Below are positions 4,679 to 63,290 of a stretch of DNA of 64,000 nt, piece by piece. The stretch is taken from assembly GCF_020085105.1 (NCBI RefSeq), contig NC_058043.1, positions 5,647,667 to 5,711,666 of the forward strand. Reading direction: 5' to 3'. The position numbers and the translations under genes are program-made. The notes under the pieces were generated by a model that saw only the letters and a program-made list of their open reading frames with translations, had not been told where the DNA came from and did not search any database. This stretch comes from Siniperca chuatsi. Lineage: Eukaryota; Chordata; Actinopteri; Centrarchiformes; Sinipercidae. Each line of letters opens with the position of its first letter. The first letter of the stretch is position 1.

Positions 4679-6089
4679 TCATCTCTGACTGTCCTGTTCT
4701 GTTGTTATAGAGATCTTAATTGGTAATATCTTCAGTGGCAGTTCATTTAGTGTGTTGATGTATGGAAACAGCTTGTCAGTGAAAGTGTGTGTGAAGGTGT
4801 GTATGTGTGTGTGTGTATCAGGATCAGAGAACGACAGTCTTCCTCTGTTCCAGTCCAGATGAACTCTGATCCTATGGAGTGTCTTCTTCACTGAAAGAAC
4901 AGTCTCTGGATCTAATGGGGAGCGTGCTCTGTATTTACTATCACAGAACCCTATTCTCCATAATCCAGACTGTTTCTTTCCCTTCCTCTCAACAGATTCT
5001 GCTGCCACACCCAGAAACCAGAATGTGCTTTTTTGAACCTCAACATCCCAGCTGTGAGTCCCTGAGTCAAAGCCCTCAGACCCCAGGACAGAGTGAAAGG
5101 GATCAAACCTCTCTGAATTGTCAGGAAGGTTTTGTCCCTCTTCATGTCGCACACTGGTCAGATCTTCAGACAGGATCAGGTGTGGGTTGGCAGAGTTTGG
5201 ATCCAGAATCACAGGAGTGTAGGAGACCATCTCCTTCATCTTGCTCCAGATGTTGAAGGTCAGGTTGCCCAGGTGTTTGGCCTCGTCTATCAGAGCTCCT
5301 GAGACCAGCGCTGGATCATCCAGCAGGGGGCGCCGCTGGACTCTTTCCACTGCAGCCTTGTAGTTCTGCAGGAATGAGACGTCTGCAGCTTTCAGCTGCT
5401 CCTCTGTGGCTCTGATTGTGTCTGAAAGATCTGCTATGTCGTTATTCAGAGCCTCAATCTGCTCCTTCATCATCTGACTCTTCTGCTCCTCGTCCTCCCT
5501 CACTGCAGCGATCCTGGCCTCCTCTTCCTCTTGTAGAAACTGGTGAAGCTTCTTAAACTGCTCCTTAATCTCCCTCTCTGTGTTTCGGGCCTGGACCTTA
5601 ATGTGTTCTGCTGTTTGATCACAGTTTCCTTTAACTTGTTTAAAGAGCTTTCAGTTTCTCCTGTACAGGCTTCAGGGACTTCTGGAGCTCCTCTCTGCGA
5701 TCCTGTGCAGCTTCATCGACGGGTCTGAATCTGTGGTTGCTGTGTGTTTTTGAATCTCGACAGATGACACACACTGGCTGCTGATGGTCCAGACAGAAGA
5801 GTTTGAGTCTCTCAGAGTGCAGACTGCAGAGAGCCTCAGACCCTGCTGAAGCTCTCTGATCTCTCTCCAGTAAGAAGGCCTCACACAGGTTCTTCAACGT
5901 TAAACTGACAGGTGGTTTATACATAGATGATCTTCTCTTACAAACTGGACACTCCTGTGTTCCTTTCTTTCTCCACCAGCTCTTCAGACAGTCATTGCAG
6001 AAGCTGTGGCTACATGACAGGACAACAGGATCTTTAAAAATGTCCTGGCAGACAGGACAAGAGAGATCCTCCTCTGATGGGGAAGCCAT
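4679..6089 (-). pseudogene. TRIM family RING/B-box/coiled-coil/PRY-SPRY E3 ligase-like gene, frameshifted
   Basis: Starts at ATG 6089 ([18 protein letters not shown]). A C3HC4 RING covers residues 11 to about 53 (CPVC, CSHSFC, CPVCKRR). A B-box 2 follows at about 87-125 ([27 protein letters not shown]) and then the start of a coiled coil. The frame stops at 5640. The next frame continues the same protein without a gap from 5647 to the stop at 4679, giving the rest of the coiled coil and a full PRY-SPRY domain ([55 protein letters not shown]). One extra base near 5648 explains the break; with it ignored the product would be about 469 residues, normal for fish TRIM16/TRIM25-like ligases, which often act in antiviral signalling. 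A 76-nt 5'UTR intron (6101-6176) is possible: the minus strand shows TCAG|GTAACT and a TTTTTCTTAAG acceptor. No other stop was seen, so a young pseudogene or a one-base sequence error both fit. Confidence 0.85.
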
Positions 6090-6177
6090 TTTTTCTCTGT
6101 CTTAAGAAAAAAAATACATCAGACAGAAAGCACAGTCAGCATAGCTGTGCCTCCCCTCCCCCTTCTAGAAAGTTACC

Positions 6178-9087: not shown

Positions 9088-11263
9088 ATGGCTCCTGTGA
9101 CAGCAGAAAACAGGCCAACGTTTTCCATCGAGCGGATTCTGGGTTTGGAGCTGAAAAGTCCTGGAAACTGCCTGAAACTCCACCGACCCTGGGCAGGTGA
9201 GGAGCAAAAGTCTTTGAATTTGAACCCTTTTCTGTGCAAGTTAAGTGAAGAGTCAAAGAGTGATGGGCCTGTTTCTTATTGATGAAGCACCAACCGTCAG
9301 TTTGATATGAATTGTGTGCATCTTACTGTAGTGCTAAAAATATATATACAATTATAGAAATATAGAATTGAACCATTAGTTCCATCTTGTCCTGTATTTA
9401 CAATATTTAAGTGCCATTTAATTCAATCTTTTCAGTCTCATCTCAATGAGTGTGCCGTAGTTGACAAGAAAATAAAATAGGAAATCAATTGAGGTATAGC
9501 AAAAATATTATTGCAAACATTAACACCATTAATTTGATATAAATGTATATGACACAGAGCACCACAATATCCTGTATAGTACTGTAAATGTATATAAAGG
9601 TAACATTGGTGATGTAAAACTCTACTTGATTAAATGTAAAAAGAGGCTCATACAAAATCTTTTCAGAGCAAAAGTTAATTTTTGAAAAGCAGTCAATTTT
9701 CCATATATCCTAATATAAATGCAGAAATTGAATTTTTGGCTCATTTGTGTGATTATATGACTTCTGAGCTCAGTATTTCTATTGTTAATGGTATTAGCTT
9801 CCACATTTAGTACATTCACTTATAATCATTTTCAGTAAATATTTTCCTTGCTGTTCTTTGACAACAGATGAAACAGATCAAACTCTTACTCAAACTTCAG
9901 TTTCTCTAGTTTGTCTGGTGATTGATCAGGATATTGTCCTGTTCAGCTTAACTGAACTGTAAACTAAACAAAAACTAAACTAAACTAAATCTCAGTGTTT
10001 CATTAACCGAAGGGATGAAGCACATAATGTGTGATCTGTCCTTCTTTTATTTTTCCAGAGATAGGAGCAGAGACAGAGAACAGAGGAAACAGTATATGCT
10101 CTAAACAACAACAACGTCATCATCCTCAGCAGCTGAACTCTGCCAGGCCGACATCAAACTGGTATATCGGACGCAGACCGCGCACTGCCTTCACCAACAG
10201 CCAGGTAATCAGTTAATCAATAAATCAATCTGTCAATTAGTCATTCAGACAGATAGATCCTAAGAAAGGATTCTCTGTCATACAGAGAACACTGAAAGCA
10301 AATACAAGATAGTCTTTAGTATGTTAATCTGTATGTGTGTGTCCTGCAGGTAAATGTACTGGAGACAGTGTTTCAGGTGAACTGTTATCCAGGTATCCAG
10401 CTGAGGGAGCATCTGGCCGGGAGACTCGACCTGGACGAGGACCGAATACAGGTTCAGACAGCACACACTGAGAATTTAACTCTGCCATTTTATTCTGAAA
10501 TGAAGCTAGCTATACTGCTTCTGCTGCTGTTACTCCTTTTAACCTCTTAAACATCAACAATCCACAAATCATTACAAACTCTGTTCAAAACCAAAGAACC
10601 TCATTTTAAATCGAAAACTTTCCAAAGATACCAGATATGTCAGGCTTGTTTTGGGGGAAATGTGTGTAAAATAATGCACAAGACATGTGCTGTATATTTC
10701 CAGCCATAAAACTACATATACCACCAGGACACATGTTTGGTATTTGTAGTCCCACTTCACTCGCTCACGTTGGCTAATGGTGGTGCCTTTAAAGGAGAAC
10801 TCCACCAATTTTACACATAGTTTACAGGTGGTAAAAATACTGGCAGCTGGTCAACAGAGGGAGCATAAGCTTAATTCACAGTCAACAAGCTTAATAAATT
10901 ATTATTGATTATTTTACATGAGCAAATTAATTAGCTGTTTTTTAACTTTTTAAGCATTTTACCATTACTTCTTGATCTAATCATCTAATACAAGTAAGCG
11001 GCTGTAAAACAGGCGCAGAAGACAGTAGCCTCATATGAAAGCATGTTGTACTTAATGACAAGAAGCTCTTCTCCTGATATCTCTGCCACATTCATTTTCT
11101 CTCTCTCTCTCAGATCTGGTTTCAGAACCGGCGGGCCAAGCTGAGGCGTTCCCTCAGAGAAACCCGTCTTCAGCTGGTTCAGACGGCCGTGGCTGACCTC
11201 GGGGTCAGACACGAGGTCATAGGTCAACTGAAGGCCAAGCGGAATCTGCAAAGTGACCTGTAG
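9088..11263 (+). CDS. hesx1: HESX1 (Anf/Rpx) paired-like homeobox repressor
   Basis: Transcriptional repressor of the anterior neural plate and pituitary primordium. Four coding exons join in phase: 9088-9196, 10059-10204, 10350-10451 and 11114-11263, giving 168 residues (human is 185). Residues 12-20 read FSIERILGL, the eh1 motif that recruits Groucho/TLE co-repressors, and HRPWA follows as in HESX1. Exon 2 ends the linker with [16 protein letters not shown]. The homeodomain has F8, L16, F20, then NCYPGI, and helix 3 with W48, F49, Q50, N51 and R53. The intron between RIQ and IWFQNRR is in phase 0, as in human HESX1. All splice sites are GT-AG. The C-terminal tail is longer than in mammals: about 17 extra residues lie between the RSLRET and [10 protein letters not shown] parts. 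The start is the first ATG before eh1. AATAAA at 11466-11471 is a likely poly(A) signal. Confidence 0.94.
10755..10845 (+). repeat. Fragment of dispersed repeat in hesx1 intron 3
   Basis: AAAGGAGAACTCCACCAATT followed by TTTACACATAGTTTACAGGT is a block I recognise from a common fish repeat. The edges are unclear. Confidence 0.45.
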
Positions 11264-12276: not shown

Positions 12277-15200
12277 ATGGACACGTTAAATAAACTGAAG
12301 CAGTTTGACGCTTATCCCAAAACTCTGGAGGATTTCCGAGTGAAGACGTGGGGAGGAGCGACCGGTGAGAGGCTTTAATTTATCAGAGAGCAGCAGCCAT
12401 TCAGACACACAGGTTGTTAGCTGCTGCGGCTAACAACAAGGCTAACTCAGTCATTTCTCCTTTAAATTATAAAATATAGAAAACACATCAAGTTACAGTC
12501 TTATCATTATCCTTATAACGCTGAGTAAGCCTGAACAGCAGCAGATTAGACATCTTTAACATTTATAATTCAATAATAGAGCACCACAACGGCAAGGCTA
12601 GTGATGAAAATGCAAACATATACATAAACAGGAGATGTATTTTCAAATAAACTTATGTGACATCAGCTCATTTTTAGGTATTTTTACCGCATATTTTCTG
12701 CAAAGGGCATTACCAGTGATTTTGCATATTTTTTTGCGACATTAGAAAAGCTACATACACTATATACTGGGCCATATCCACCGTCTCATAATCATCTTAA
12801 TAACCTACACTTAACTTGACAGTTCATGCACTATTACTTATTACTTATATTACTACATTGTATTATTATACCGTACATACTTATCATCAACCGGTAAATC
12901 CACTTTGTACTTTACACTTATTTTAATGTTATACTTATCCACTTTGTACTTAATTTATCTTGCCTGTATCATAGTGTATTATGTTCTGATTTGCTTAGTA
13001 CTTCTATTCCTGTGTGCACTGACGTGACAGTGAGCTGCTGTAACAAAAGAGTTTCCCCTCAGGGATCAATAAAGTATTTCTGATTCTGATTCTGATTCTG
13101 ATATACATTACAATGCCTTAGACTATATAAGTGAATTGTGCAAATTAAGTCCAGTAGTGCAACTCTGGCAGCCATGACATGAACTATATATAGTATAGTA
13201 TAGTATAGTATAGTGTATATATATTTATATAAAAATAATAAATATAGTCTAGAATGTTGTGTATGTTATATGTGCAGTATATACAGTAAAAATGCAATGC
13301 TGTGAAGTATATATAATAGAAATGGAATGATATAGCAAAATATAATAATGAAAGCACAATAATTACAAAATATAGTAGGAATATAGTACTATTATATAAT
13401 GACACCAGTAATATAATTCAATGAAAATGGTGTTAGATATGTTACTATTACTTTAGCCTATCAAGCAGCCATTGATTTCATTTTATTTCTGTGTGGTTTG
13501 AAAATCCAGTGATAGACTGTTGAAACTTGCTGGTTGTGTTATGCATTTAATTTTCTAATTAACATTTTCCTTAAACAGAAGCTATTAGGCTGATGTAAGT
13601 TACAGAGCAAAGATAGTGTCTTTTTAAAATGTGAAAAACATAATGTAATGCATCTCTGAAAATGTTTCTCGCATTTGATAAAATATGATGAAAAAACATT
13701 AGAAGAGGATCTGAGTGCTTTTTTTTTTTTAAATTCTCGCTCTCACAGTTTGAAACAGGATTTAAAAGAACTCTTCTGATTTCTAACATGCACACTGCCT
13801 CTGTGTCTCTGCAGTGACCATCATCAGCGGTGTCATCATGTTAATCCTGTTCGTCTCTGAGCTGCAGTACTATCTTACTAAAGAGGTGAGTTCATCCACA
13901 TCACCTGACTATTTGATATTGTCCTCTAGTGGGCAGAAAGCTCCAGGTGAAATTAAATTTGACACTTAACACAGAGGCAATTTAACACGTGTGCTGCCAA
14001 AAAGAAGTCCTGCTTTTGGCTTTGATCACTATAGTGTGTCCAGGCAGGCCAGCACACATTTTCACACAGCCTCATTTATCGATTGTACAAATTACATGTA
14101 AACAGGTGATAATTTGTCCACTGACTACCACAGGTCTTGAAAAGTCTTTAAAAGCATTGAATTCAATCCCCTCAACAAAAAAAGGCCTAAGAAGGTATTA
14201 AAAAGTCTTACATTTGAATTACAAAAGTCTTGAATATTTGTTCTTGCCTCCTGTAGACAGTAACATAGTTTTTTTTTTTTTTTTTATTATTATTTTTTGG
14301 GTTGTGGTTGTGGACACGTTACACATCTATAAATTAAAAGTGAGATTGTTTTGAAGCAGATTGTTCGCACAGGAGGCTGTTCAGTCCTTCAGCAACCTGT
14401 AGCAAACACTGTCACAACTGCTAGCCACAGTAGCTAGGAGGCTCATCGACTCATATTGGGTGAATTTTAGCAAAAACTTTTTAATTGATTATTTTTAATT
14501 GGTTACTTCATCAATTTTATGCCACTTATCTGGGTTCAGGTCACGATTATTATATTACCAGGAATTATTGATACAGACAAAAATGTAAGATAAATGTCAA
14601 TAAATTCATGTACTTAATGAATAATTGTAGGCCTTATTGTCCTTGCTAAATTGCAATTGCATGTGGCATTAAAAAGGTCTTAAATTTAACTTTGTGAACA
14701 CTGCACAAACCCTGTACCAGTTACCCGTAACACTGACAGCAACATTGTAATGGTTTAACAAAACAATCTCAATTCAAGGTCCACTCACCAGCTTGTTCCC
14801 AAGCTTTAAACCATATTACGCAGTCTTCATTAGCAGATGGCGTTTGTGCAGTTGTAATGGAGCTGTAGATGTTCAAATGTTCTATTTTTGCAGCACTTTT
14901 AAGACTTCTCATCAAGTTCAACTTTTAGGCCAACATGGACAAGAAGTCCCAAAAGTGCCCAGAAAAACAAAGTAGTTGTTGATGAAGCTGTTTCCAAGTT
15001 TGTTTGTTTTTTCAGGCGATGAAGGGCACAGATTAGTAAACTATCCAAAATTAATAAATAATGATAATAATAAAGGCTGTCTGGGGTTACCATTAACCAT
15101 CTTTCAGCCTTCAGGTGTGTTTCCTGTCAGGCTGGTCTGATGAGTCCAATCACACAAACAATGAAGCTTTTGTATGCTGAAGGCTCAAAGTTCCAACACA

Positions 15201-16582
15201 CAACTGTGAAATCAACACTAGTTTTCATCATTGTGTTGCTCATAGTTGTTAATCATGATAACTGGTCTTAATAATTTGAAAGTGACATGTTTTCACTTAC
15301 CTTTAAAGTCACAAGATTCAGAATTATGTTTGCATTGAACAGTTTTATATTCATCAGGTAATGCAATCAGTGACTGTTAAAGTCCTGTTTCCTAAACATT
15401 TCAACATGTTAGCTCCAATTAAGTAAATCAAGGACAAAAATTCAGTCGATGTCTTTTGTTTCATGGTACAAAATGTTGTATAGCTAATAAGGCCAGTAGG
15501 AATGTAGTACAAAGACCCATTAAAATGTTTAATTACTTCTACTACTACAAACTGAATGGCAGAAAGGCTTAATTTTCTGTTGCTTTGGTGCAAAAAACAT
15601 CACGAAAGGGGAGATGTGTTGTTGTCATCTAAAAAACTGTCAGTTAAATGTTTCATGCATCAGTGTCAGACATGTTTTGTGTTTTGACTTCATGAAAATT
15701 TGTCCGTGCTGTTTGTTCCCTGCAGGTTCACCCTGAGCTGTATGTCGACACGTCGCGAGGAGACAAACTGAAAATCAACATCGATGTCATTTTCCCTCAC
15801 ATGCCCTGCGCCTGTAAGTGGCACTGCTGTTACCTCGCTGCCTTAGCGAGAAGCTTCTGGCTGATGAAGCGAACATGTTAATGATGACACATGTTAATTA
15901 TAAACAACCCCTCGCCTTCCCCCATTCTTTTTTCTTTTGTTCGCTCAGATCTCAGTATAGATGCGATGGATGTGGCCGGTGAGCAGCAGTTGGACGTTGA
16001 ACATAATCTGTTCAAATTGCGGCTGGACAAAGACCTCAAACCTGTCACCCAAGAGGCAGATAAACATGGTAAACCTAGACTTTACTCAGACAAATGACCC
16101 CCTGACACTGATCGACAGCTCTTGGCAAGGCATTCAGGCCAAAAATGGTGCATTAAAGTTAAACAAATTAAAAAACAAAAAACGCAAGGGGCTACATTGA
16201 TGTGGTCAGGTTGCTACAGGTATCTGTGAGTAGAGGAAATATGATCCAGGAAGGCCAGTTTGAGTGATACATCCATGAGGTCAAAACAGCGCACAGCATT
16301 TTGTAATACGCAGACAGGCAGCAACAGTTTGCTCCTCTTCCTTAGTGCTTGTGAGGTTAGCAGACATTAAAGCAACACTAAAAGCTACACACTACAAGGT
16401 TCTAGCTGGACAGTTTGGGTGCGCATTTTTGATTTGCCTTTCTGATTGTGCGTTAACAGATAACACTGGAATGCATGGCAGCAAAAGTAAGTTTTTTGCT
16501 GGACAGCCCTGTGTTTTTTTGCCAGAGCCTCTGCGACAGGAATTTCAAAACTAAATCATGTTTGTTGGTTGATAATCGTGAA

Positions 16583-16618
<36 letters not shown>

Positions 16619-19600
16619 GTGTTTTTTTGTGTAGAACTTGGTAAGGCTGACGATGGTGAAGTGTTTGACCCCAGTACACTGGACCCAAACAGATGCGAGA
16701 GCTGCTATGGAGCTGAGACTGAAGACCTCAAGTAAGACACGAACACACACACACACACACAGACAGGCTCTGCTTTTTCTGTCTTTGTGTTTTCTGTATA
16801 ACCTTGTATTTACTTGCCTTGCCTTCTGCTTGTGTGTGTGTGTGTGTGTGTGCAGATGTTGTAACACATGTGATGACGTGCGGGAGGCATACCGGCGGCG
16901 AGGCTGGGCGTTCAAGAGCGCCGACACCATCGAGCAGTGTAAGAGGGAGGGCTTCACACAGAAGATGCAGGAGCAGAAGAACGAAGGCTGCCAGGTTTAC
17001 GGCTTTCTGGAGGTCAACAAGGTACTCCAGTTCTTATCTGTGAATTATTGTTAGTATCTCAAAAATGTCAGTCTTTAAACAAAGAGCAACAGCCTTGTTT
17101 CTATCTGGAGGACATCCAGTGGGGTTTGGAAAAATGTTCAGAGGAACATATGCAAATATAAAAATTCAGTGACCTGTAATACTTTAGATCTGCAAAATTA
17201 CATTTGTATAATTTTATGTTGAGATTTTAGTTTATAAAATTAGTAATCTAGAAGTAACATCCTGAATTTGCAAACCCTGGAGAAACTTTTAGAGTGTTTG
17301 TAATTTATTAAAACAACAGTTTGTAGTGTATGATTCTTTTACAGTTCCTTAAAAAACACACAACAACTCTTCCTCAGACTGTCGTCATACTCTTTCTGGT
17401 CTTACTCGTGTGTTCTTTCCTTCAACACCTGTTCCAGACATAATAAATGAGTTATATGCCTGACTCAGTGATATATGAGTATAAGGTCCAATGAAATGAA
17501 GATAGAAATTTGAGAGTAAAGTTGAAATATTTTGAGACGAACATCATGATATGAGAATAAAACTGTAATTTAAAGAAAATGTTAAGCTGTATACCTGTCA
17601 TAGAAAGTGTCTACAGTCCAAAATCATGTCTTTTGCAAAGAAAAGTTTTAACTGTTCAGTATATATGTACTATCAGGAAATGCTTAATAACATACAACAC
17701 TTAGTTCTTAAAATACAACAACAACTTTCTCATAATACTTTGATTTTAGTCTTGCAATATTATGACTTTTTTTCTCAAAATATTATGACTTTATTCTTGA
17801 AATTTCTTATTTTCTCTTTCCTGACAGTGGTCCTGATACTATATTGATTGGATTATTTTTATTTACCCTCTCTTCCTCTTTGTGTCTCAGGTGGCAGGAA
17901 ATTTCCACTTCGCTCCAGGAAAAAGTTTCCAGCAGTCTCATGTCCACGGTAAGACCTGCTGTTTATCCGCTCTGCTCATACACTCACATAACCATTCAAA
18001 GGTTTTTGAACACCCTGTGTTAGTTTCCTGTGGCAGACGACATACACTGGAAATTTGTTCTACGCTTAAATGCATTTTCTACATGTTTCTAACTTATACG
18101 GGCTGAAGTGGTAGCCCTTTTAAAAATACTTTAGTTAGTTAGGTCTTTGTTGGGACCTTTTTTTCGTTGAAGATGCACTACACAACTATCAAGAAGTAAT
18201 GCAAGTGAAGCACAAAAATCAAAGCTGCAGCAAGCTGTATAGACAGGTGTTAGTGTCAGTGTCAGAGAAACTGAAAATCTGTAAATGTCAGTTACATTTG
18301 CACTGTTCAATAAGTTATGCTAGTTTTAACAATTAGAAAAACATTTGTAAAGACACTCACAGCCAGCTCACATCAGAGAAAAGGCAACGGAATAAGACTT
18401 GTGGAATGATGAATCTAAGTTTGAGATTCTCCCGTCGTCGGGCCCTTTCCGATCAGATTCACTTCTCAGTTCACTTTCTACAATAAAAGGTGTTCTGAAA
18501 CATTTGTCTGGTAAGTGTGTTTATCAGTCTCTGTTCATTCATCCATTCTTCATCCCTCATCATAGATCTATACATCCACACCCACCACATCCATGAACAA
18601 AACATTCATTAATCCCAACTCAGGGCTGCACAGAATAATTTCTGATTGCATGTTGAGATTCAGATAATCAGTGTGATTTTCATTGAACATGTTTCAGTGT
18701 TTGTGCACTAAAAGTGACATTTTGTCAGTATTTGAACAGTTTTATTTAGAAAACCCATTGTAGTTGAATCGTAAAAATGTTGGTATAGGACACTGTATTG
18801 TATTGTGCAGGCCTGCAGTCAGTCTGTCTGTTCAGCTCTCTGTTGTACAGTTTGACTCACACAGGTGAAGGTCGGGCACCAGCTATATATATAGTACTAT
18901 ATATAGAGAGTTTGAGTGTTACAAGGTTTCTAAAGCTGATGCCAGTATTATCTGATTGAATCAATATTCTGTAAGTGTAAATTTGACTATTTTAATTTAC
19001 ATCTGTCCATATTTGTTTTCCTGTCAAGAGTGAAAAAGCCTCAGAAACATAATTTTGGTCATAATAGGGCTCCATGACTCTACACTGAAACCAAACTGAT
19101 GACATTCTTTTGCAGAGGCTGACAAATACAATCAGTCTCTTTATCTGCTCTGGCTGGCAGATTTTCTTGTTTTGTTTTTAAAACAAAGGACATTATCACC
19201 TGATACATCAGCAAACACTTGATTATGCATTAGTGTACCTCTAAAAAGCACAATTTCCTCACATTTTTGTGCTTTTCCTCTGCATTTGTCTACATTTTTA
19301 TTTCTTTCATTTGTTTTGTCCTTTGACTGCTGTTGGTGACTTTTGTTCTGCCATCATCGTGTGTCAGTTTTGGTCTTTGTTATTATCGTGACTGGACTGT
19401 CCTGTTTTCCTTGCCTGCTAAACATTTCCCTCGTCTGCACATTAAATCAGAGCAGGAAATTAACAGCAGCCAGCCATCAAATGCTCAAATAAATCTTCTC
19501 TAACAGCCACTTCAGCAGGAAAAGTGCCACAATTTATAGGCTGCGTCTAATCTGAACGAACAGTAGTTGGCTACTAAAATGGAGAACGTGGCTAGTAAGT

Positions 19601-22600
19601 TAGATTACTCTTCAGGTATCCAAGCATCAATTGAAAATACTAGTATGCTGACATGCAAATCTGGTTGGTTGCTAAAATAGTGCAAGTGGCTGAAGTCTGG
19701 GCTGCACTTACCAGTGTTGCTGTTAGTTTCCTACCCTGAACAACATCCTCTGATCTCTGGCTCTGTAATGTGAGATAAAACAATCTGATTGAACGTATTT
19801 ATTTTGTTTGCAGTTATATTTGAATGCTTAGCAGCAGAAACAAGAGACAAGAATCACTTGTGCTGAGGATTTGACTGTAAATAAGTCTGCGGCTGAAATA
19901 AATCAGCCTCACCCTTATTCTGGTCCCAAACCCCCTTTAGTCTGGACTGACGTCATGTGTTTGGGGCTGCACGATTACCCAGACAGAAGTTATACAGACT
20001 ATTTTCTAAAGCTCTTATTCTTTGACACAGAAAAAAATATAATCCTCCTCAATGAGATATTCTGCTGTTATGTAAAATCTCTGGCTTGTAAATCAATTCG
20101 TAAAGTGGAGTTGAGCTTTTAACACTTTGAAACCAACCAAATCATGAGCACAGAAGCCTGAGGTTAGTTTTAAAAGCTGTGTCCTCATGTGTCACTGTTC
20201 ATATCTTCATAAAATTAGATTTGTAAAAAATATTGATCGTACAAAATCTAAAAAAAAAACATTTTGTCAGTGTTGTGCAGCCCATATCAGCACCCTCCCA
20301 CACATTAACATAACATGGTTTGTTGTCTACCTGCATCGTTATAGTGACTCTTCTCTCTTCTTTCTGCAGTGCACGCTGTGGAAAGTAAGTCCATCTTTAT
20401 TTGCCGTTTTTTAAAATTATATAAATACCTATAAACGTCACTGAAGAACAGCCTCATTCCAGTACAGTAACCTGTTTATTGATATATGGGAAAGTATTGC
20501 AAGTATATGAATATTTTGTAATAAGAAGTGAAAACGGGTGAAAATGACTTAATGTTGAATTTAAGTAGAGGATCGTGCTCACTATATAGAACCCAGTTTA
20601 CAAGTCAGAAGACAAAGTTAAATTTACAATTTTGATGTGATTTGTTTTGATATTCACAAGATGCACTCAAATATGACTTAATAGATACTAACATTAAACC
20701 AGTAAATGTATCTAAATATTACTGTGGTATCAGCATGTGATTGGGCATACATTTTTAAAGGGCTGAAGGAAGCGGAATCTTTCCAGTTAGAAATGTTATT
20801 ATTGAAGACCGACGTTTCTCATCCAGCAAGCGTCTTGAGCTTCTGCTCATCAGCCTTGTATCTCACTGTGCTCCATCTGTAGACATCTGCTGAACTTTTG
20901 ATGGTGTCAGTCATAGTGTGTGAACTTAGAATGAAGTTGGTCAATTCACGCCACTGACCAAACTGACAGCAGAACTGTATTTTTAGAAAACAAATCCACT
21001 GTGTCTCAGTTGGGAGGCTTGTATATTATTACAAACTAAAGTTTTGTCCTGAACAGACGGAAAATCTGGTTTGTGCAACTCTGAGAAACTTGCTTTGTTA
21101 TTGTGTATTTGCAGTACTTTCCAACAGGTTAACAAACAGGGCAATGGAGCTGCTGTAAAGTTGAGTGTTGTTAAAGCCTCCAACTCCAAGCTCCTTAGCA
21201 GAGCTGTGGATGGGCTCTTTATATTTACTGTATTTAGCTGGCACTTTTAACCACTGACTTACATATTTAGTCTGACGTCAAATCTTAAGTCTTTGAATTG
21301 TAGTTATTCAGCCAGTTTTTAGCATTTTTACAAACATATTTGATGTTAGGTTTGTTGGTCAAGTCTGGTCAGGTTTGCAGCCAATTAGATTTTAGATACA
21401 GTGGGAAGAACAACTTCACAATAACACCTGCTCACACAGTTATCATAACACATATTTACTGTACAGGAATAAATATCACATAAAATGTCAGCATGCTGAG
21501 GTCATTCTGAATTTGTGTTAACAAATGAAGTGAAAGATGACTCAAACCAAATACCTCATGATAGTTTATAAATACAAACAACCACATTTAAGCGAGGTCA
21601 AAGGTCAGAGCCTTAGCACCCTGAGGACAGACACGCAGCTACTAACTCTGATATGAACTTGTGTGTGACTGGTGACTTCAGCTTTATTTGCTGCCTTTCA
21701 TCTACAAACTAATCAGACTGAACAGCTGAATCGATGGCAGTAATCAGTCACAAACTGATCATTAACTCTCATTTCTGACAGATCTGTAACTTAAGATACA
21801 TTCACATTCCTTTTTCTTTACTAAATGTGTATTTGAAGCATTTGTAATTAACAGGCTAAGTGATGTTTTTGTTTGTGTTTGCAGTACACGACCTGCAGAG
21901 TTTCGGCTTAGACAATGTAAGTAACACAACAGATGATATCTTCTTTATCTGTTTTTGAGTTTCTGCAACTTTATATTTTCAAAAATAACAGATTTGTATT
22001 TTTTTCGTTTGCTTACTTGAATAAGAGTTTGTATAATTTTAGAAAAATCCCAAACCTTGAACTGTCAGGTAATATTCAAAATTGTATATATTAATACTAA
22101 ATAAACACTTCGCACTACATGTCCCTTATTAATAATATTAAGAAAAGGCTTGAGATGACAAGCTGTTCAGTTATATGAATTTTGTGTTTTAAGTCTGTTA
22201 AATTCTGATGAGTTTGATACCATGATCTCGTTCACAAAAACAAAAGGCTGGGAATGAAGACATTTTTAATGGAAGACCTGCTTGTTGCTAATCCCTATGA
22301 AGGGTTGCTGAAGTCTGTCAACTACTAATATTTCTGTCTGTCGTCCTGCAGATAAACATGACCCATCTAATAAAGCACCTGTCGTTTGGTAAAGATTACC
22401 CCGGCATTGTTAATCCTCTGGATGAGACAGACGTCACAGCGCCACAAGGTCAGTAATATCATGGTTTTGCTGTTTTCAGTATGATGCTGGTAGGAAGAAC
22501 ACAATAAGCAGCAGTCTAACACTTATGTTTGGTGTTCAAACTAAATGTTTTCTTGAAAAATACATGGATAATTTTACTCTAAATCTTACTATTACATCCT

Positions 22601-25600
22601 GTTCATTCTTAGTGGGTTGGAAAACCCTCTCAAAATCAATGACATACATTTCTTCATCTGCTCATTATCTGTGTGGATGTCCATGGACCACCCAAAAATT
22701 ATGACCATGTGAACTGTCCCTGTCTACCGCACTAAGGAACAAGGAAGGGCTTTTATCAGCTACATATAACAGTATCCGTGATAATCAATGCACATTTACA
22801 CTGGACCCTGTAAATTTATGACGTGCTTTCGAAAGGAGTTGACTAACTCACACTGAAGTGGCTAGTTTATCCACAGTTGTTTTTGATGGATGTGGACTGT
22901 AAGAAGTAGTTACTGGTTTAGCTTCTGGCTCAAGGGCTGAATTAACTTGCTAAGAGTTTGACCCAAATAAAACAAGAAATTTGAACATCCAGGCAGAAGC
23001 CCACTTCTGGTTTGACTCAGTTTCATACATTTGGACTAAACTTAGCGATGCAGAATTAAACAAACTAAGTGTGCCGGGATAAAATTTGCTGTTTTGTGTC
23101 TGTCACTCTAAACTAGACGTTGGCAGCAGCAGAACGTTTAACATATCCACTCTGAAAACCATTTGACAAATCAGAACTTTTATTGACAAAACTAGACTGT
23201 CGGTTGAGAGTGTGACAGCATTGAGCAGACAGAGAGGTGTGGTTGTAGTTCCTGGAAGAGTCCCATAGCTGTACAGTTGTGTAGAGGAGGTTGTTGTTAC
23301 TCGTCCTCAGCAGCGGATGCCCATACCGATAGCCATGAAGGTACCGAACGTCCCCCCGCTCTGCATCATGGTCTTCCCTACTCCTCCCATCAGCTCCCTG
23401 CCACGCATGCCGATCCTAGAGACAGAAGAGACAGCTTTTATTTAGTGGCAACTGAATTGGGAAAGTGACCATCAGGCTCTAGTTTGAATGTTAGACTCAA
23501 CTGTAGGTTGTCTGAAAAGTAGACTTACAATTTAACATGTAAATAATGGTGTCAGATAACTTTGAGTTGATATGGCTGATCAATAACAGTGTACACAGAA
23601 TTAAGTTTAAGAACTCTGTTCGTGTACAAATTTGACTCAACTCGAAATTTACTTGCAGGCCAAGTGTGGATGTTGTGTTTGAATCTATGCAGAGGATGGT
23701 CCAAAAATTGATTTTATTTCAAGTTAGCCTGTTTTCTATTTGCCTACAAAGCTCTGATTGGCTCAGTTGTTTATCAAACACCACCAATGAGCCCAGCCCC
23801 AGACCTATTGAGTTGCTGATAAAATTTCTGAGATGTGGACAACATGTCAGAGGTTAATATTAGGCCTAATCTGTGTGGTTTAGACAAAACCGCAACAGGC
23901 CTGTTACTCTTTGCTCCATTATAATCATTAAGTACCCTCCGTTTATTATAATAAATACACAGACAGTTATCACTCAATACTGTAGATTACTTACAACTAA
24001 TTATGCTAATTTACGTCTTCATTGTTGGTGTCATTTGAGATTGTCTATAGACAATATACTCATCGCTCACAGCACACACAAAACATCCACCGCTGGTTGT
24101 AACACAGCTGACTACTGGACAGTAGCATTTATGATCATTGGTAGATCGTAGGAAATAGACAGACAGGTACTCCTGAAGGAATCAAACCACCAACCACACC
24201 TAGTGCCTTAACACACTGAGCTTCCAACTCAGAGCAGAGGAAGGGCATGTTCACATTATTCTGCTTTTCAAATAAAACTGACACTGTTTTTAGAGTAAAG
24301 TCACTGGGAGGCAAAGAGAAGTTGTCTGGTTTCTTATTTGGCAGAAAAATCTGAATAATTGACCCACCAGCCCTTTTTCCATGTGTATAATAAGCCAATT
24401 TTATATTCAGACTGTTGTACAGATGTTCAGAAAAGCTGATTCATTGGTCCACTGAACAGTTCACACTGGCTTCTAGACAACAACAGCTGGTCTTAATGGA
24501 AACCAAGTTTACATTTTCAATTTCATCCCATATGCAATTGCTGTTTCTATAAAAGCAGAATAGCTTGGGTGCACGCTAAGTTCAGAGTTACCTAAGACAG
24601 GAGAAAGTGCCAAACATGGCGCCAGCAGCCATTCCTACTGCAAATCCCATCATGAAGCCCATCTTGACCCGGTCAAAACAGCTGGGCTGGGTCTGGCCAT
24701 ATGGACCTACAGCCACTGGCATCTGGAGAGGAAAGACGGACAGAGGCACGTTAGAGATGAGATAGATGGAGCAGTAGACAGTTACTGTTCTGTTTTCCGA
24801 GTGACATGCAGTCTGTTCTGATAGCGTGAGGAACAATATACTGAGCAGTATTGTCTTTATTCCACTGTGAACATTACATACTCAAAACCTGCAAAAAAAT
24901 ATTAAGTAAACACTAGTATGGATTGAGGACACTAATGCTTTCAACATCTAACTACTGTTCGAAAATGCAATTAAAGTTTTAGAAATTCAAATGATTGCTT
25001 CCTAAAAGTCAGACATTTGACCTATGTATCCAACGTTTGCTTGCTATTTGTAAAAAAAAAAAAAAAGCCTGTCCGGTGGCATCACAGTAATGTACTAAAA
25101 AGATCAAATCTAGTCAGCTTTGAGAGCTTTACTCATTTTTGTTTTCTCAAATTAGTTTTTAGACGTATCAACAGTCTAGCCCCAGAGCCTCTTTCCAGAT
25201 ATATCCAAAGACAAGACAGTAACATGAATGCAACTATAAAATACCACATCATAGATGTAAATTTGGACAATCAGCTTTCTCCATAAAAGGCCTGTCAACT
25301 CAGGAGCACATTGCCAACTGAAGTCAAATTAATTCCAGATATAAAATCTTTTACAACAAAAGGTTAAGTGCTGGCTAAAAGCCAACCAGAGCTGTACCCA
25401 TTTTAGCTAATTGAACTCTAAATTACCAAAGTGTATTGGTGTACTGCGGTATGTTTATTGGGGTATATGTATTTTCATATCTGCAGTGTATTGTGGTTTT
25501 GATACTGAAAGCTGTATATTTTAAATACACTGTATATGAAAAAGCCCAACTAGGGACACGCGTTGAAAATAGCTATAAACTCTCTGTGCAGCACACAAGT

Positions 25601-28600
25601 TTCATGCTCTGTATTGAAACTATGTTAAATTGCATCGTCCCTATCAAATAAAAATAAATTCAATTGCTAATAGTCAGTTATTTTACTATAATTCCTACTG
25701 GTCATTTAATGCTCAGCTGACAATCCATGCTAGCTACAAACGTTGCCTTAACTAAAGTCATTTGGCAGTTAAGTTGCTGGTTAAAGTTGTTAATTGTTTC
25801 TGGATAACGTTAATGATTAAGTTGTATTGCTAAGCCTGTAAGGTTAGCTAAGTCTGGGTTATTTAATTAGCTAGTAAGCTCTACGAGGCTAATGTTAGCG
25901 AGCACACTTGTATTAACGTTTGCAGACGAAATAACCAGCGGCTTGTTTTACTGCAGCCTTTAAACGGTCACCATACAATACCATACAGTAACGTTATTTC
26001 TGTAAAATTCACTCTTTATCCCACCCAGATCGTTTGTTGTGCTAGCTTAGCATGCTAACTAACAGGCTAACGTCACCTATGGCCTTGACAGATAAACATG
26101 GCGCGTTTTCACCGATAAATTGTGTCTTTGATCAACACATTCTCGCAAATGCGTCTGAAATCGACCTTACCTTGAACTATGTGTTTAGAATAAGGTTGGT
26201 TTTCTGGTTCCTAACTAGAGGATTATCGTATTTTGGAGCGCAGGTGCGTTTAAATGTCTTTCTAGCAGACCTCCATAACCGGATAGAGGAAGGAAAAAAG
26301 GACAGAGGAAGCAATTTATAAGAGGAGAAATAACCTGGAGGAGAAAATGAACAGCGCCAACCCGTGGTTTGTTCCATTACTAGTGTTATTTAGATAGTTA
26401 ACCCACTTGCAATACAAAACTCGTTCCTCTTTAGTTTTTCAGTACTGGTCACATTGTGAGTGTCAGTGTTTTATTTTCAGAACTTGTTTGGTATCGATGC
26501 TTCTGAAAGTTGAATCCGTCTGATCGACTGGACATTGTATTGTTGTTTATAATACTGGAATACGATAATAAATACACATGTTTTTGAGTACACAGTATGG
26601 TGTATTTAATATATGTAATATATATCCTATTGTGAATGAGCTTTAATTATATAGCGGTTGATCCTAAAACTTCTGTTTTATTCAAGTAGATTAAACTACA
26701 GTAGAATAGACTGTAAATTGTTTTATGCTGTATGAACATCCACACCTCAGTTATACCTCATTCATTTTCTTCGTCTCATGACACTCCTCAACACGCTTCA
26801 CTGCTGTAATAATCCATATATTCCTTACTTAAAAGTCCTGCCTCTTACATTCTGGTTTGATAATTGTTTGTTCTGTAATATTTAACTATATCCATTGCTC
26901 TAAATAGTTTTTCTTATTTCCTGCTATTTCTTCTTGAGCTACCATTTGCTATTGGTATTTCAGAGATTATTAACAACCATGTTGATCTCAAGTGTTTTCT
27001 GTGTGTCTGCATTCATATTTTATTTCCTTTTTCTCCCCACAGCATCAATGATGTACCAGTATTTTGTGAAAATTGTTCCTACCATCTACGTTAAAACTGA
27101 TGGAGAGGTGAGTCCAAAATTGTATTAAGTTTATTTTACATTTCGTCCCTGAAATTCCTCTTTCATTCCAGACCTTATCAATGTTGTTAAAGTGACAAAT
27201 TGAGAAATAAAAAGGTTGGTGCAGTACACAGAAACATAGTTTTTGTATCCTTTCTTTTTATGTTTAGTAGGTTCTTAAGCATTTAAATGCAACAAACATG
27301 TTGTGTACCATAAAGCAAACATTTATTTAATCTAATCTAATCTTTAATTGAAAGCTGTACCAGGCTACATTTAACCTCCAGTCCTTCTCATCATCCTAAA
27401 ACAGTGTTGTCATTTTGTTTTTGCAGGTGGTAAAAACAAACCAGTTCTCAGTCACCAGGCATGAGAAAGTGGCCAACGGGCTAATAGGAGACCAGGGGCT
27501 GCCGGGCGTGTTTGTTTTATATGAGCTGTCACCCATGATGGTTAAATTCACAGAGAAACACAGGTAGGAGACAATGGAGGGGCTCGCTTAATAAAAGCTG
27601 TCAGTTACTTTATTGCCCTCTCATTTAAATTGGTGAATTGATGTTGACACTATACTGGCACATTACGCAGCCCATTTCCAGCTGCTTTTTCAACTCGTGT
27701 GCAGATGGCTCCTAGCTTGGCAGTGTATTTGTCTTGCAACATGGTAACTGTGTTGTTGAAACTGCATAATACAGACATGGTGCATGAGCTGTATCTGTAC
27801 CTGAGCTGGTTCTGGTCCCGTTGTCGGAAATCAAGAGAACCACTAGTGGTTGTCGACCCTGCAAGTCTGAAGACATCTGCATAAAGTTGAAACTTGCTCC
27901 TCCATGTCGTGCTGCTGGATACCTTTTGAGTCTCAGATTCTTGTGATAAGCGACGGCATGTATTGTTCAATTCACAATGTCTGAGATCCTGTGGCTTCTC
28001 CATTCTTTGAGATCGTACCAGTTCAAATTGCAAATGCATCTTATGTAGCTGAGCTTTGTTCAAACTCTCACAATGTAATTTTACAAACTAGTAGAGAGAG
28101 AGTGAGCAATAAATCGGTCGCGCCGATATTTTAGTTTTAAATGATCTGCTCAGTATGTATCTTGGTCACGAATTTTAAAACAACAAAAATTTCAAGATTG
28201 TTTATGTTTTCTAAAAATGACTATTGGCTGATATATCGTTTTCAGATTCTTTAAACTCCCACATATCAGGCGGTCTAGAGTAGAGATCCTTGTTTGTTAC
28301 ATGGAGATGTAATGGTTCAACCAGTTCTAAAAAGAAGGAGTATTTTAGGTTTGAATACTTCACTCAGTGTCTGATTCATATAGCTTTAGTAGCGATTTTG
28401 GAATAATCAGATTAGAAAAATTAACCAGATACTGCATCAATAAATAAAATAATAGTTTAAAGGGGAAATGGTTTAAAGGACATTTAAAGGCAATACAATG
28501 GTTCAAGAAGTAAATTCAAATTGCTAGTCTCACATTTTTAAGGAGGATTTTATTGACAGTTATGTCAAGAAGATGTGAGCTTCTTTAAATCTTATTGCTA

Positions 28601-28876
28601 AATAACCAATTTTCTCTCTCTCTCTCTGTTCAGATCGTTCACACACTTCTTAACAGGAGTTTGTGCCATTGTTGGAGGTGTATTTACAGGTCAGTCAGGT
28701 TACCTGATAATACACCGCAGACTGAAATATGAATAGAAATTTAAATGAAGTGGATGAAATCAGACTCTCTTCTTCTGTCACTTCTATTTCCTGCAGTGGC
28801 CGGTCTGATCGACTCGCTCATCTACCACTCAGCTCGGGTCATCCAGAAGAAGATAGAGCTGGGCAAGGCGTCCTAA
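12277..28876 (+). CDS. ergic3: ERGIC3, ER-Golgi intermediate compartment protein 3
   Basis: Membrane cargo receptor (Erv46 family) cycling between ER and cis-Golgi. Fourteen coding exons join in phase: 12277-12364, 13815-13885, 15726-15813, 15949-16068, 16635-16731, 16856-17021, 17891-17948, 20370-20384, 21885-21916, 22352-22448, 27043-27107, 27427-27563, 28634-28689 and 28797-28876. The product is 389 residues (human 383 or 388). It starts [22 protein letters not shown]1 is about residues 31-46 ([16 protein letters not shown]). The luminal part has a cysteine cluster (CESC at 143-146 and CCNTC at 156-160). TM2 is about 348-372 ([13 protein letters not shown] and following), and the short cytosolic tail ends KKIELGKAS with a dilysine. 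Exon 8 is only 15 nt. Intron 5 is 124 nt and flanked by AC and GT repeats. Intron 10 contains antisense romo1. All introns are GT-AG. Confidence 0.96.
12365..13814 (+). repeat. ergic3 intron 1 with a repeat tail and (TATAG)n tract
   Basis: From about 12760 to 13100 the sequence ends GGGATCAATAAAGTATTTC and then TCTGATTCTGATTCTG, the 3' tail type of a common fish nonautonomous or LINE-derived repeat. At about 13186-13215 there is a pentanucleotide run (TATAG)n inside AT-rich DNA. No coding potential was seen outside the exons. Confidence 0.6.
14100..14725 (+). repeat. Dispersed repeat with recurring AAAAAGTCTTA blocks (ergic3 intron 2)
   Basis: Blocks such as GGTCTTGAAAAGTCTTTAAA, GGTATTAAAAAGTCTTACAT and AAAAAGGTCTTAAATTTAAC recur from 14130 to 14695. 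I recognise them as internal parts of a common fish repeat. A T-run of about 22 bases with one break lies at 14270-14290. Confidence 0.55.
16583..16615. repeat. (GAT)11 microsatellite in ergic3 intron 4
   Basis: Eleven GAT units lie 20 bases before the exon 5 start at 16635. The pyrimidine tract between them is TTTTGTGTTTTTTTGTGTAG. Confidence 0.9.
16732..16855 (+). promoter_or_regulatory. ergic3 intron 5: 124-nt intron with (AC)9 at the donor and (TG)11 at the acceptor
   Basis: After the GTAAGA donor, AC repeats run 16743-16761. TG repeats run 16831-16852, ending three bases before the exon in TGTGTGCAG. The two runs are complementary as RNA, so the pre-mRNA could fold with the splice sites held together. 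The TG run occupies the place of a normal polypyrimidine tract. See findings. Confidence 0.8.
18393..18440 (+). mobile_element. Possible Tc1/mariner transposase scrap
   Basis: Reads [11 protein letters not shown], matching the W(S/N)DESKFEI block around the second catalytic aspartate of fish Tc1 transposases. The match ends after about 11 residues, and a stop sits just upstream in frame. It lies in ergic3 intron 7. Chance is possible at this length. Confidence 0.4.
23307..24722 (-). CDS. romo1: ROMO1, reactive oxygen species modulator 1 (mitochondrial inner membrane)
   Basis: Small inner-membrane protein linked to ROS control, cristae/OPA1 and TIM23-type import (family knowledge). Two coding exons on the minus strand, 24722-24592 and 23415-23307, join AG|G in phase with a CTTAG|GTAACT donor and a TCTCTAG acceptor. 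The product is 79 residues, exactly the human length. It starts [20 protein letters not shown], followed by the glycine-rich helix [19 protein letters not shown] (about 22-40), and ends [13 protein letters not shown]. Cys15 and Cys79 are both present. A CTTTCCTCTCCAG acceptor sits directly before the ATG, so a non-coding first exon lies further upstream. The whole gene lies inside ergic3 intron 10, in antisense. The reading frame is intact and has an intron, so it is not a processed copy. Confidence 0.95.
25070..25665 (+). mobile_element. LINE (non-LTR retrotransposon) 3' end, degenerate
   Basis: The frame reads [18 protein letters not shown] and a later block matches [14 protein letters not shown], the C-terminal end of fish LINE ORF2 (NGLAPPPLS.FI and SLPTEI..L motifs). 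A 3' UTR with AAAGCCCAACTAGGGACA follows, and the end CGTCCCTATCAAATAAAAAT is a typical A-rich LINE tail. Stops and shifts break the frame. It lies in ergic3 intron 10, upstream of romo1. Clade uncertain. Confidence 0.75.
26171..26340 (-). promoter_or_regulatory. Candidate romo1 first exon and promoter
   Basis: On the minus strand TATAAAT lies near 26315, and a good donor TTCAAG|GTAAGG lies at 26171/26170. The area around 25880-26200 is locally richer in CG dinucleotides. It would splice to the acceptor directly before the romo1 ATG at 24722. This is inference; no transcript evidence. Confidence 0.35.
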
Positions 28877-62429: not shown

Positions 62430-63290
62430 CCTAAATCAAAAACTGCCAGAGCCAACACAGATAGCTGTGTTTTGATAATACCTAAGCAAGGTAAAGCCCA
62501 GAGGAACTCAAAACTACCAATTAGTTTGCAATGTGTGGACAATAAAATATTGGCTTTTAGCTAAGTTATTAGATCCTATTCTAGTCCCACATTAATATAG
62601 GAAAGCGTTCAACCAAATCGAATGGAAATACATGTTCAACGTTTTGAAGTGTTTCTCTTTGGGCAATATATTTATAAGTTGGGTGAAATTACTGCATACC
62701 TCTCCACAAGCAATGGTTATGGCTAATGGTTTCACATCACTGCGGTTTACTCTTGGGTGTGGTACTCGTCAAGGTTGTCCACTGTCCCCACTTTTTTATT
62801 ATTTCGTTGTATGCGGATGATAGACTGCTATTTCTCTGCAACCCTAAACAATCATTTCCAGCTATGCTAGAAACAATTAATGAATTTGGTAGTCTTACTG
62901 GCTATAAGATCAATGTGGGTAAACCTACTGCTCTCCCACTGGGAGGTAGTGGAGATTCAAATAACAGCATAACATCTCTATTAATATAATTAGTTCTACA
63001 ATGGCTTTGAATATCTGGGGATCCATATCTTCTTCTTCTTGTTTTGACCCTGGTTTTAAAGAGTGGAACACATTTGGAATTCAGGTGATAAATGATCTCT
63101 GTGAACAAGAAGAGTATGGGCTACCTAAGATATACTTTTTAAGATTCTTACAAATTCTAAGTTTTTTAAACTCAGTACCCCATTATAAGGAAGGTTATGG
63201 ACCGGAGCAGATTGAGGTACTCATTCACCAGGTCTGCCTATGTGCATTTAATGTGGCCCTGAAATTTCCCCTGTAATTAGCATCAGCATC
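62430..63290 (+). mobile_element. L1-like LINE reverse-transcriptase relic with internal deletion
   Basis: From about 62450 worn blocks match VLIIPKQGK, PISL and VDNKILA of the RT N-terminus. Then VLKCFSLGNIFISWVKLLH and LGCGTRQGCPLSPLF follow, and after a frameshift LYADDRLLFL, with the catalytic YADD at 62810-62821. TINEFGSLTGYKINVGK and YLGIHI-like blocks come next, and a later part reads LPKIYFLRFLQILSF. The RQGCPLSP and YADD motifs are only about eight codons apart, much closer than in intact L1-type elements. Dead copy. Confidence 0.85.

Follow-up and report, generated by a model that had tools for sequence, protein, structure and literature searches.

The fifth intron of ergic3, a gene of the secretory pathway, in Siniperca chuatsi carries an AC repeat close to its donor and a complementary GT repeat at its acceptor. 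By its sequence, the order of its repeats and its predicted fold, it is most likely a new case of the (AC)m-(GU)n introns known from zebrafish. The explanation towards which we lean is that a hairpin of the two repeats would bring the splice sites together and lower the need for a pyrimidine tract. If intron 5 behaves like the zebrafish introns, paired dinucleotide repeats would contribute to intron definition in another fish as well, and in a gene that is broadly needed. Intron 5 opens no new kind of mechanism; it offers a compact test case of 124 nt, and a residual pyrimidine stretch within it makes it useful for asking how RNA structure and U2AF2 share the work of splicing. The DNA analysed, here called the window, is a 64-kb piece (C2:5647667-5711666) of a 719-Mb genome assembled in 65 contigs, and the positions given below are those of the window.

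The ergic3 gene and the repeats of its fifth intron

The ergic3 coding region with its introns occupies 12277-28876 on the plus strand. The 14-exon model built here joins into a single open frame of 389 aa, whose product matches the Pfam families ERGIC_N (6.3e-34) and COPIIcoated_ERV (1.1e-90), the domains expected of ERGIC3. A genome search with a 74-aa query taken from exons 6 and 7 returned two matches, both of them inside ergic3. Intron 5 (16732-16855, plus strand) is flanked by exon 5 (16635-16731), which is supported by the gene model and by the Pfam matches of the joined protein, and by exon 6 (16856-17021), which is placed by the gene model. It is a phase 2 intron of the form GTAAG..CAG that splits the third of the codons GAC CTC AA/A TGT TGT. 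Introns of the U12 type have donors of the ATATCC or GTATCC type, and such an assignment was rejected for intron 5, the donor of which is GTAAGAC.

The intron opens with GTAAGACACGA and continues with (AC)9 (16743-16760) plus one A. This AC run (16743-16761) begins at intron nucleotide 12 and forms the 5′ arm of the predicted hairpin; the 3′ arm is provided by (TG)11 (16831-16852), directly after which comes CAG. The two runs are thus complementary, stand in AC-then-GT order and lie no more than 12 nt from their own splice sites. The first-pass annotation, made from the sequence, had placed (AC)9 about ten bases after the donor and (TG)11 three bases before the exon, and both its coordinates and its repeat counts are right.

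Predicted structure of the intron RNA

Folded alone, intron 5 has a minimum free energy of -45.6 kcal/mol (z -4.45), which none of 200 shuffles equalled. Of 3168 further 124-nt segments sampled along the window (plus strand, taken in steps of 20, those overlapping 16600-17000 excluded), 12 folded at least as well. The minimum free energy structure consists of 35 pairs in one long hairpin, in which 17 contiguous AC/GU pairs join 16743-16759 with 16831-16847; the other pairs comprise 4 CACG/UGUG pairs outside this stem, 8 pairs inside it and 6 in small inner helices. The terminal nucleotides are unpaired in this fold, six at the 5′ end and three at the 3′ end, so that GUAAGA and CAG stand at the base of the hairpin, and the path from the 5′ to the 3′ splice site is reduced to 10 steps, as against 123. 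Per nucleotide, the minimum free energy is -0.368 in intron 5 versus -0.157 to -0.254 in the eight other ergic3 introns that were folded (9 of the 13 in all). Only two of these introns are of like length, and they reach -26.8 kcal/mol at 135 nt and -21.3 kcal/mol at 107 nt.

The dependence of the fold on the two repeats is also apparent from in silico changes to the sequence. Scrambling of the AC run gave a mean of -25.8 kcal/mol and scrambling of the TG run a mean of -29.8 kcal/mol (100 scrambles each), a cost of 16-20 kcal/mol for the loss of either run, while the fold stayed at -41.0 when the arms were exchanged. In a context of 324 nt, which includes 100 nt on either side, the model has the TG run pairing with an expected 16.5 of the 19 bases of the AC run; the probability of this pairing is 0.99-1.0 for 14 of the 19, and is lower at the ends of the run. 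The suggestion, made before any folding, that the two runs can pair and bring the splice sites close is therefore borne out at the level of prediction, the modelled fold being dominated by AC/GU pairing.

The same extended context suggests that the splice sites are not simply free. The unpaired probability of the donor GT is 0.35-0.36 (0.35 for the first G), and that of the acceptor C, A and G is 0.27, 0.48 and 0.77, respectively, so that in the model both sites pair in part with the exons. Folding of 16700-16880 (181 nt), which the first-pass annotation had named as a check, had a divided outcome: the AC/GU stem stays, but the fold as a whole does not stand out (z -1.31, with 22 of 200 shuffles as good), in a shuffle test that is weak because dinucleotide-preserving shuffles also keep the AC and GT steps.

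Branch point and pyrimidine content

Judged by sequence, the most plausible branch point of intron 5 is the adenosine at 16812 (plus strand) in UUUAC, the only match to yUnAy in the intron. It precedes the 3′ splice site by 43 nt, a distance that is the same with or without the intron fold, and its unpaired probability in the 324-nt context is 0.91. An alternative adenosine might be seen in the UAAC at 16801 (plus strand), 54 nt ahead of the 3′ splice site, for which the corresponding probability is 0.24. The letters that follow A16812 are CTTGCCTTGCCTTCTGCT, a residual pyrimidine-rich stretch (16813-16830, plus strand) with C or U at 15 of 18 positions, after which the TG run begins. This stretch is partly paired in the predicted fold, at 16821-16828. 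There is no AG between A16812 and the final AG of the intron, the preceding AG being at 16765-16766.

In the 20 nt that precede the last three nucleotides, intron 5 is 50% pyrimidine, the lowest value among the 13 ergic3 introns, the others ranging from 65 to 95%. The earlier view that the TG repeat stands in place of a pyrimidine tract consequently holds for the last 25 nt or so of the intron and fails upstream of them, where the pyrimidine-rich stretch is found. The persistence of such a stretch after a plausible branch point means that U2AF2 may still be used, and it weakens any argument for a lower need of U2AF2 that is drawn from a missing tract.

Comparison with zebrafish (AC)m-(GU)n introns

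Introns of the (AC)m-(GU)n kind were reportedly described in zebrafish by Lin et al. in 2016 (Genome Res 26:12-23, doi 10.1101/gr.181008.114). The zebrafish work to which the first-pass annotation referred does exist, and the same terms are used in papers that cite it (PMC9024468, PMC9198270, PMC6093180). According to one of these, the zebrafish introns form hairpins in which the terminal Gs are close, they are removed without U2AF, and their folding energy is 50-100% below that of introns of the same length; in the example of cep97, the branch point is masked in the hairpin (PMC9024468). A second paper has dinucleotide-repeat hairpins across the intron ends mediating U2AF2-free splicing in zebrafish (PMC9198270), and the point about U2AF2 is repeated in two others (PMC6883713, PMC9508853). 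Introns of this kind are cited as making up about 10% of zebrafish introns and as possibly present in many ancestral vertebrates (PMC6093180). Among the literature matches listed, none reports an (AC)m-(GU)n intron in another fish, which is no proof of absence. Three further papers (PMC7404189, PMC5766209, PMC9977717) yielded no additional information on such introns.

Intron 5 shares with the zebrafish kind the AC repeats near the donor, the complementary GU repeats at the acceptor and a predicted hairpin that spans the intron. Per nucleotide it also folds almost twice as stably as the gene's two other short introns, a further likeness to the zebrafish kind. Terminal Gs that are unpaired and close are likewise predicted when the intron is folded alone, and less clearly so when the 100-nt flanks are included. 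There are also differences. Unlike the zebrafish kind, intron 5 keeps a pyrimidine-rich stretch between branch point and repeat, and its best candidate branch point, A16812, is predicted to be open, whereas that of cep97 is masked. Moreover, in contrast to the share of introns cited for zebrafish, there is no sign of abundance in the 264 kb made up of the window and the next 200 kb, where the candidates were partly inspected.

Frequency of paired AC and GT runs

Runs of at least 10 nt number 14 for AC and 16 for GT in the window, and 67 for AC and 98 for GT in the 264 kb. Within the latter, pairs of runs 10-100 nt apart occur 12 times in AC-then-GT order and 10 times in GT-then-AC order; for wider gaps the corresponding counts are 10 versus 19 (100-300 nt) and 8 versus 26 (300-1000 nt). 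The region thus has no general excess of AC-then-GT order. Combinations of a donor and an acceptor around AC-GT pairs were found 22 times in the 264 kb (10 on the plus and 12 on the minus strand), the ergic3 intron included. Eight of these besides ergic3 leave an open joined frame, and ergic3 intron 5 is the only one with flanks that are known to be coding. No second convincing case was found in the 264 kb, one candidate (L044) having been inspected further and seven others judged only by their predicted peptides; we do not take this as evidence of rarity. The candidate inspected further, on the minus strand, has a GTGAGT donor, an AC run of 35 nt, a TG run of 19 nt and CAG, and was rejected on flanks that look non-coding by eye.

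When the AC and GT runs of the window were redistributed at random in 200,000 trials, 0.026% of the trials gave at least one of the 13 ergic3 introns a layout like that of intron 5, in which an AC run lies no more than 30 nt after the donor and a GT run no more than 10 nt ahead of the acceptor. This figure is a guide only, because the thresholds were set after the case had been seen, only ergic3 introns were counted, and many introns had been scanned beforehand. A genome-wide search for a splice-bounded AC-GT pattern with a spacing of 20-50 gave no matches and no controls, at a spacing that excludes the ergic3 intron (at least 80). The raw genome-wide counts are 1252+1282 for AC..GT and 999+1039 for the pattern read backwards, and are uninformative with regard to introns because the matches overlap and each repeat is counted many times.

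A proposed role for the hairpin in splicing

The explanation that we tend to favour, hairpin-assisted removal of intron 5, can be set out as follows. The AC run would be the first to emerge in the nascent RNA, and it would pair with the UG run once this had been made 69 nt further on. In the single long hairpin that results, GUAAGA and CAG would stand at the base, both splice sites would be held side by side, and intron definition would need less help from a 3′ pyrimidine tract; the remaining pyrimidine stretch and U2AF2 may share the work with the hairpin. From the modelled fold we infer that such a structure arises in the nucleus and assists the splicing of intron 5. A function of the hairpin is likely on these grounds, and the shared use of structure and U2AF2 appears plausible given the sequence between branch point and repeat. 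It would be a considerable further step, and a very improbable one, to suppose that selection keeps both microsatellites pairable, that variation in their length between individuals or species tunes the splicing of intron 5, possibly with temperature in a cold-blooded animal, and that the pyrimidine tract serves as a backup.

The same sequence can be read in ways that give the duplex no role. Two ordinary microsatellites may by chance share a single short intron, with the hairpin tolerated and not needed and with U2AF2 using the stretch after A16812. Such a coincidence is possible though somewhat unlikely. It would be eased by the density of AC and GT runs in the region, and it gains from the fact that the ordinary signals are in place, with a largely pyrimidine stretch, a normal yUnAy and an interval without AG that extends from 16765-16766 to the final AG, as well as from the failure to find another convincing case among the partly inspected candidates of the 264 kb. 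The joint placement of the two runs is nevertheless rare at random, on thresholds set afterwards, and part of the pyrimidine stretch on which U2AF2 would have to rely (16821-16828) is predicted to be paired.

It is also conceivable, although we regard it as improbable, that the runs act as protein sites and not as a duplex, with AC bound by hnRNP L and UG by TDP-43 or CELF-type proteins, and that splicing is raised or lowered in this way. CELF-type proteins bind UG repeats, and the CFTR TG tract and the eNOS CA repeats are precedents for protein-bound repeats that alter splicing. The (TG)m(T)n tract that precedes CFTR exon 9 is a TDP-43 site and resembles the TG run of intron 5 in placing UG repeats near a 3′ splice site; Hefferon et al. 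are said to have proposed, in 2004, that RNA structure is also involved there. Unlike the CFTR tract, the TG run of intron 5 abuts CAG without a T tract and has a complementary AC run in the same intron. Intronic CA repeats of eNOS were reportedly described as bound by hnRNP L by Hui et al. in 2003, and they lie near a 5′ splice site, as the AC run of intron 5 does; in intron 5, however, a complementary run follows 69 nt further on. Both runs would be long enough for several sites, and in human the length of AC repeats correlates with HNRNPL binding and that of GT repeats with TARDBP binding, according to a preprint (PMC13174678). This evidence of binding is from human, and binding to single strands would have to compete with the predicted 17-bp duplex.

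Related sequences and neighbouring genes

Scans for ERGIC3 orthologues, one of genome contigs and one of viral contigs, found only three short and distant matches of at most 23 residues. These lie at L051 1145-1210, L052 1270-1323 and L053 2765-2812, show 48-56% identity and belong to one contig of a bacterial MAG and two contigs of IMG/VR; they may be eukaryotic sequence misassigned to bacteria or viruses.

Several other features of the window were recorded. Within ergic3, a (GAT)11 trinucleotide repeat (16583-16615) is found roughly 20 nt ahead of the intron 4 acceptor. Exon 8 is only 15 nt long (20370-20384), and the reading frame is open with or without it, which is reminiscent of a known ERGIC3 isoform difference. 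Nested antisense in intron 10 (22449-27042) is a two-exon gene of 79 aa on the minus strand (24722-24592 and 23415-23307), which we take to be romo1-like. Just upstream of ergic3, on the plus strand at about 9089-11263, are pieces of a homeobox gene, comprising an N-terminal motif and a homeodomain split in three; this gene is presumably like hesx1/Anf. Farther from ergic3, open frames on the minus strand at 4679-6101 are RING-, B-box-, coiled-coil- and PRY-SPRY-like, as we would expect of a TRIM/fintrim-type gene. At the other end of the window, an open frame on the plus strand (62687-62989) resembles part of a LINE-type reverse transcriptase, as suggested by a YADD motif.
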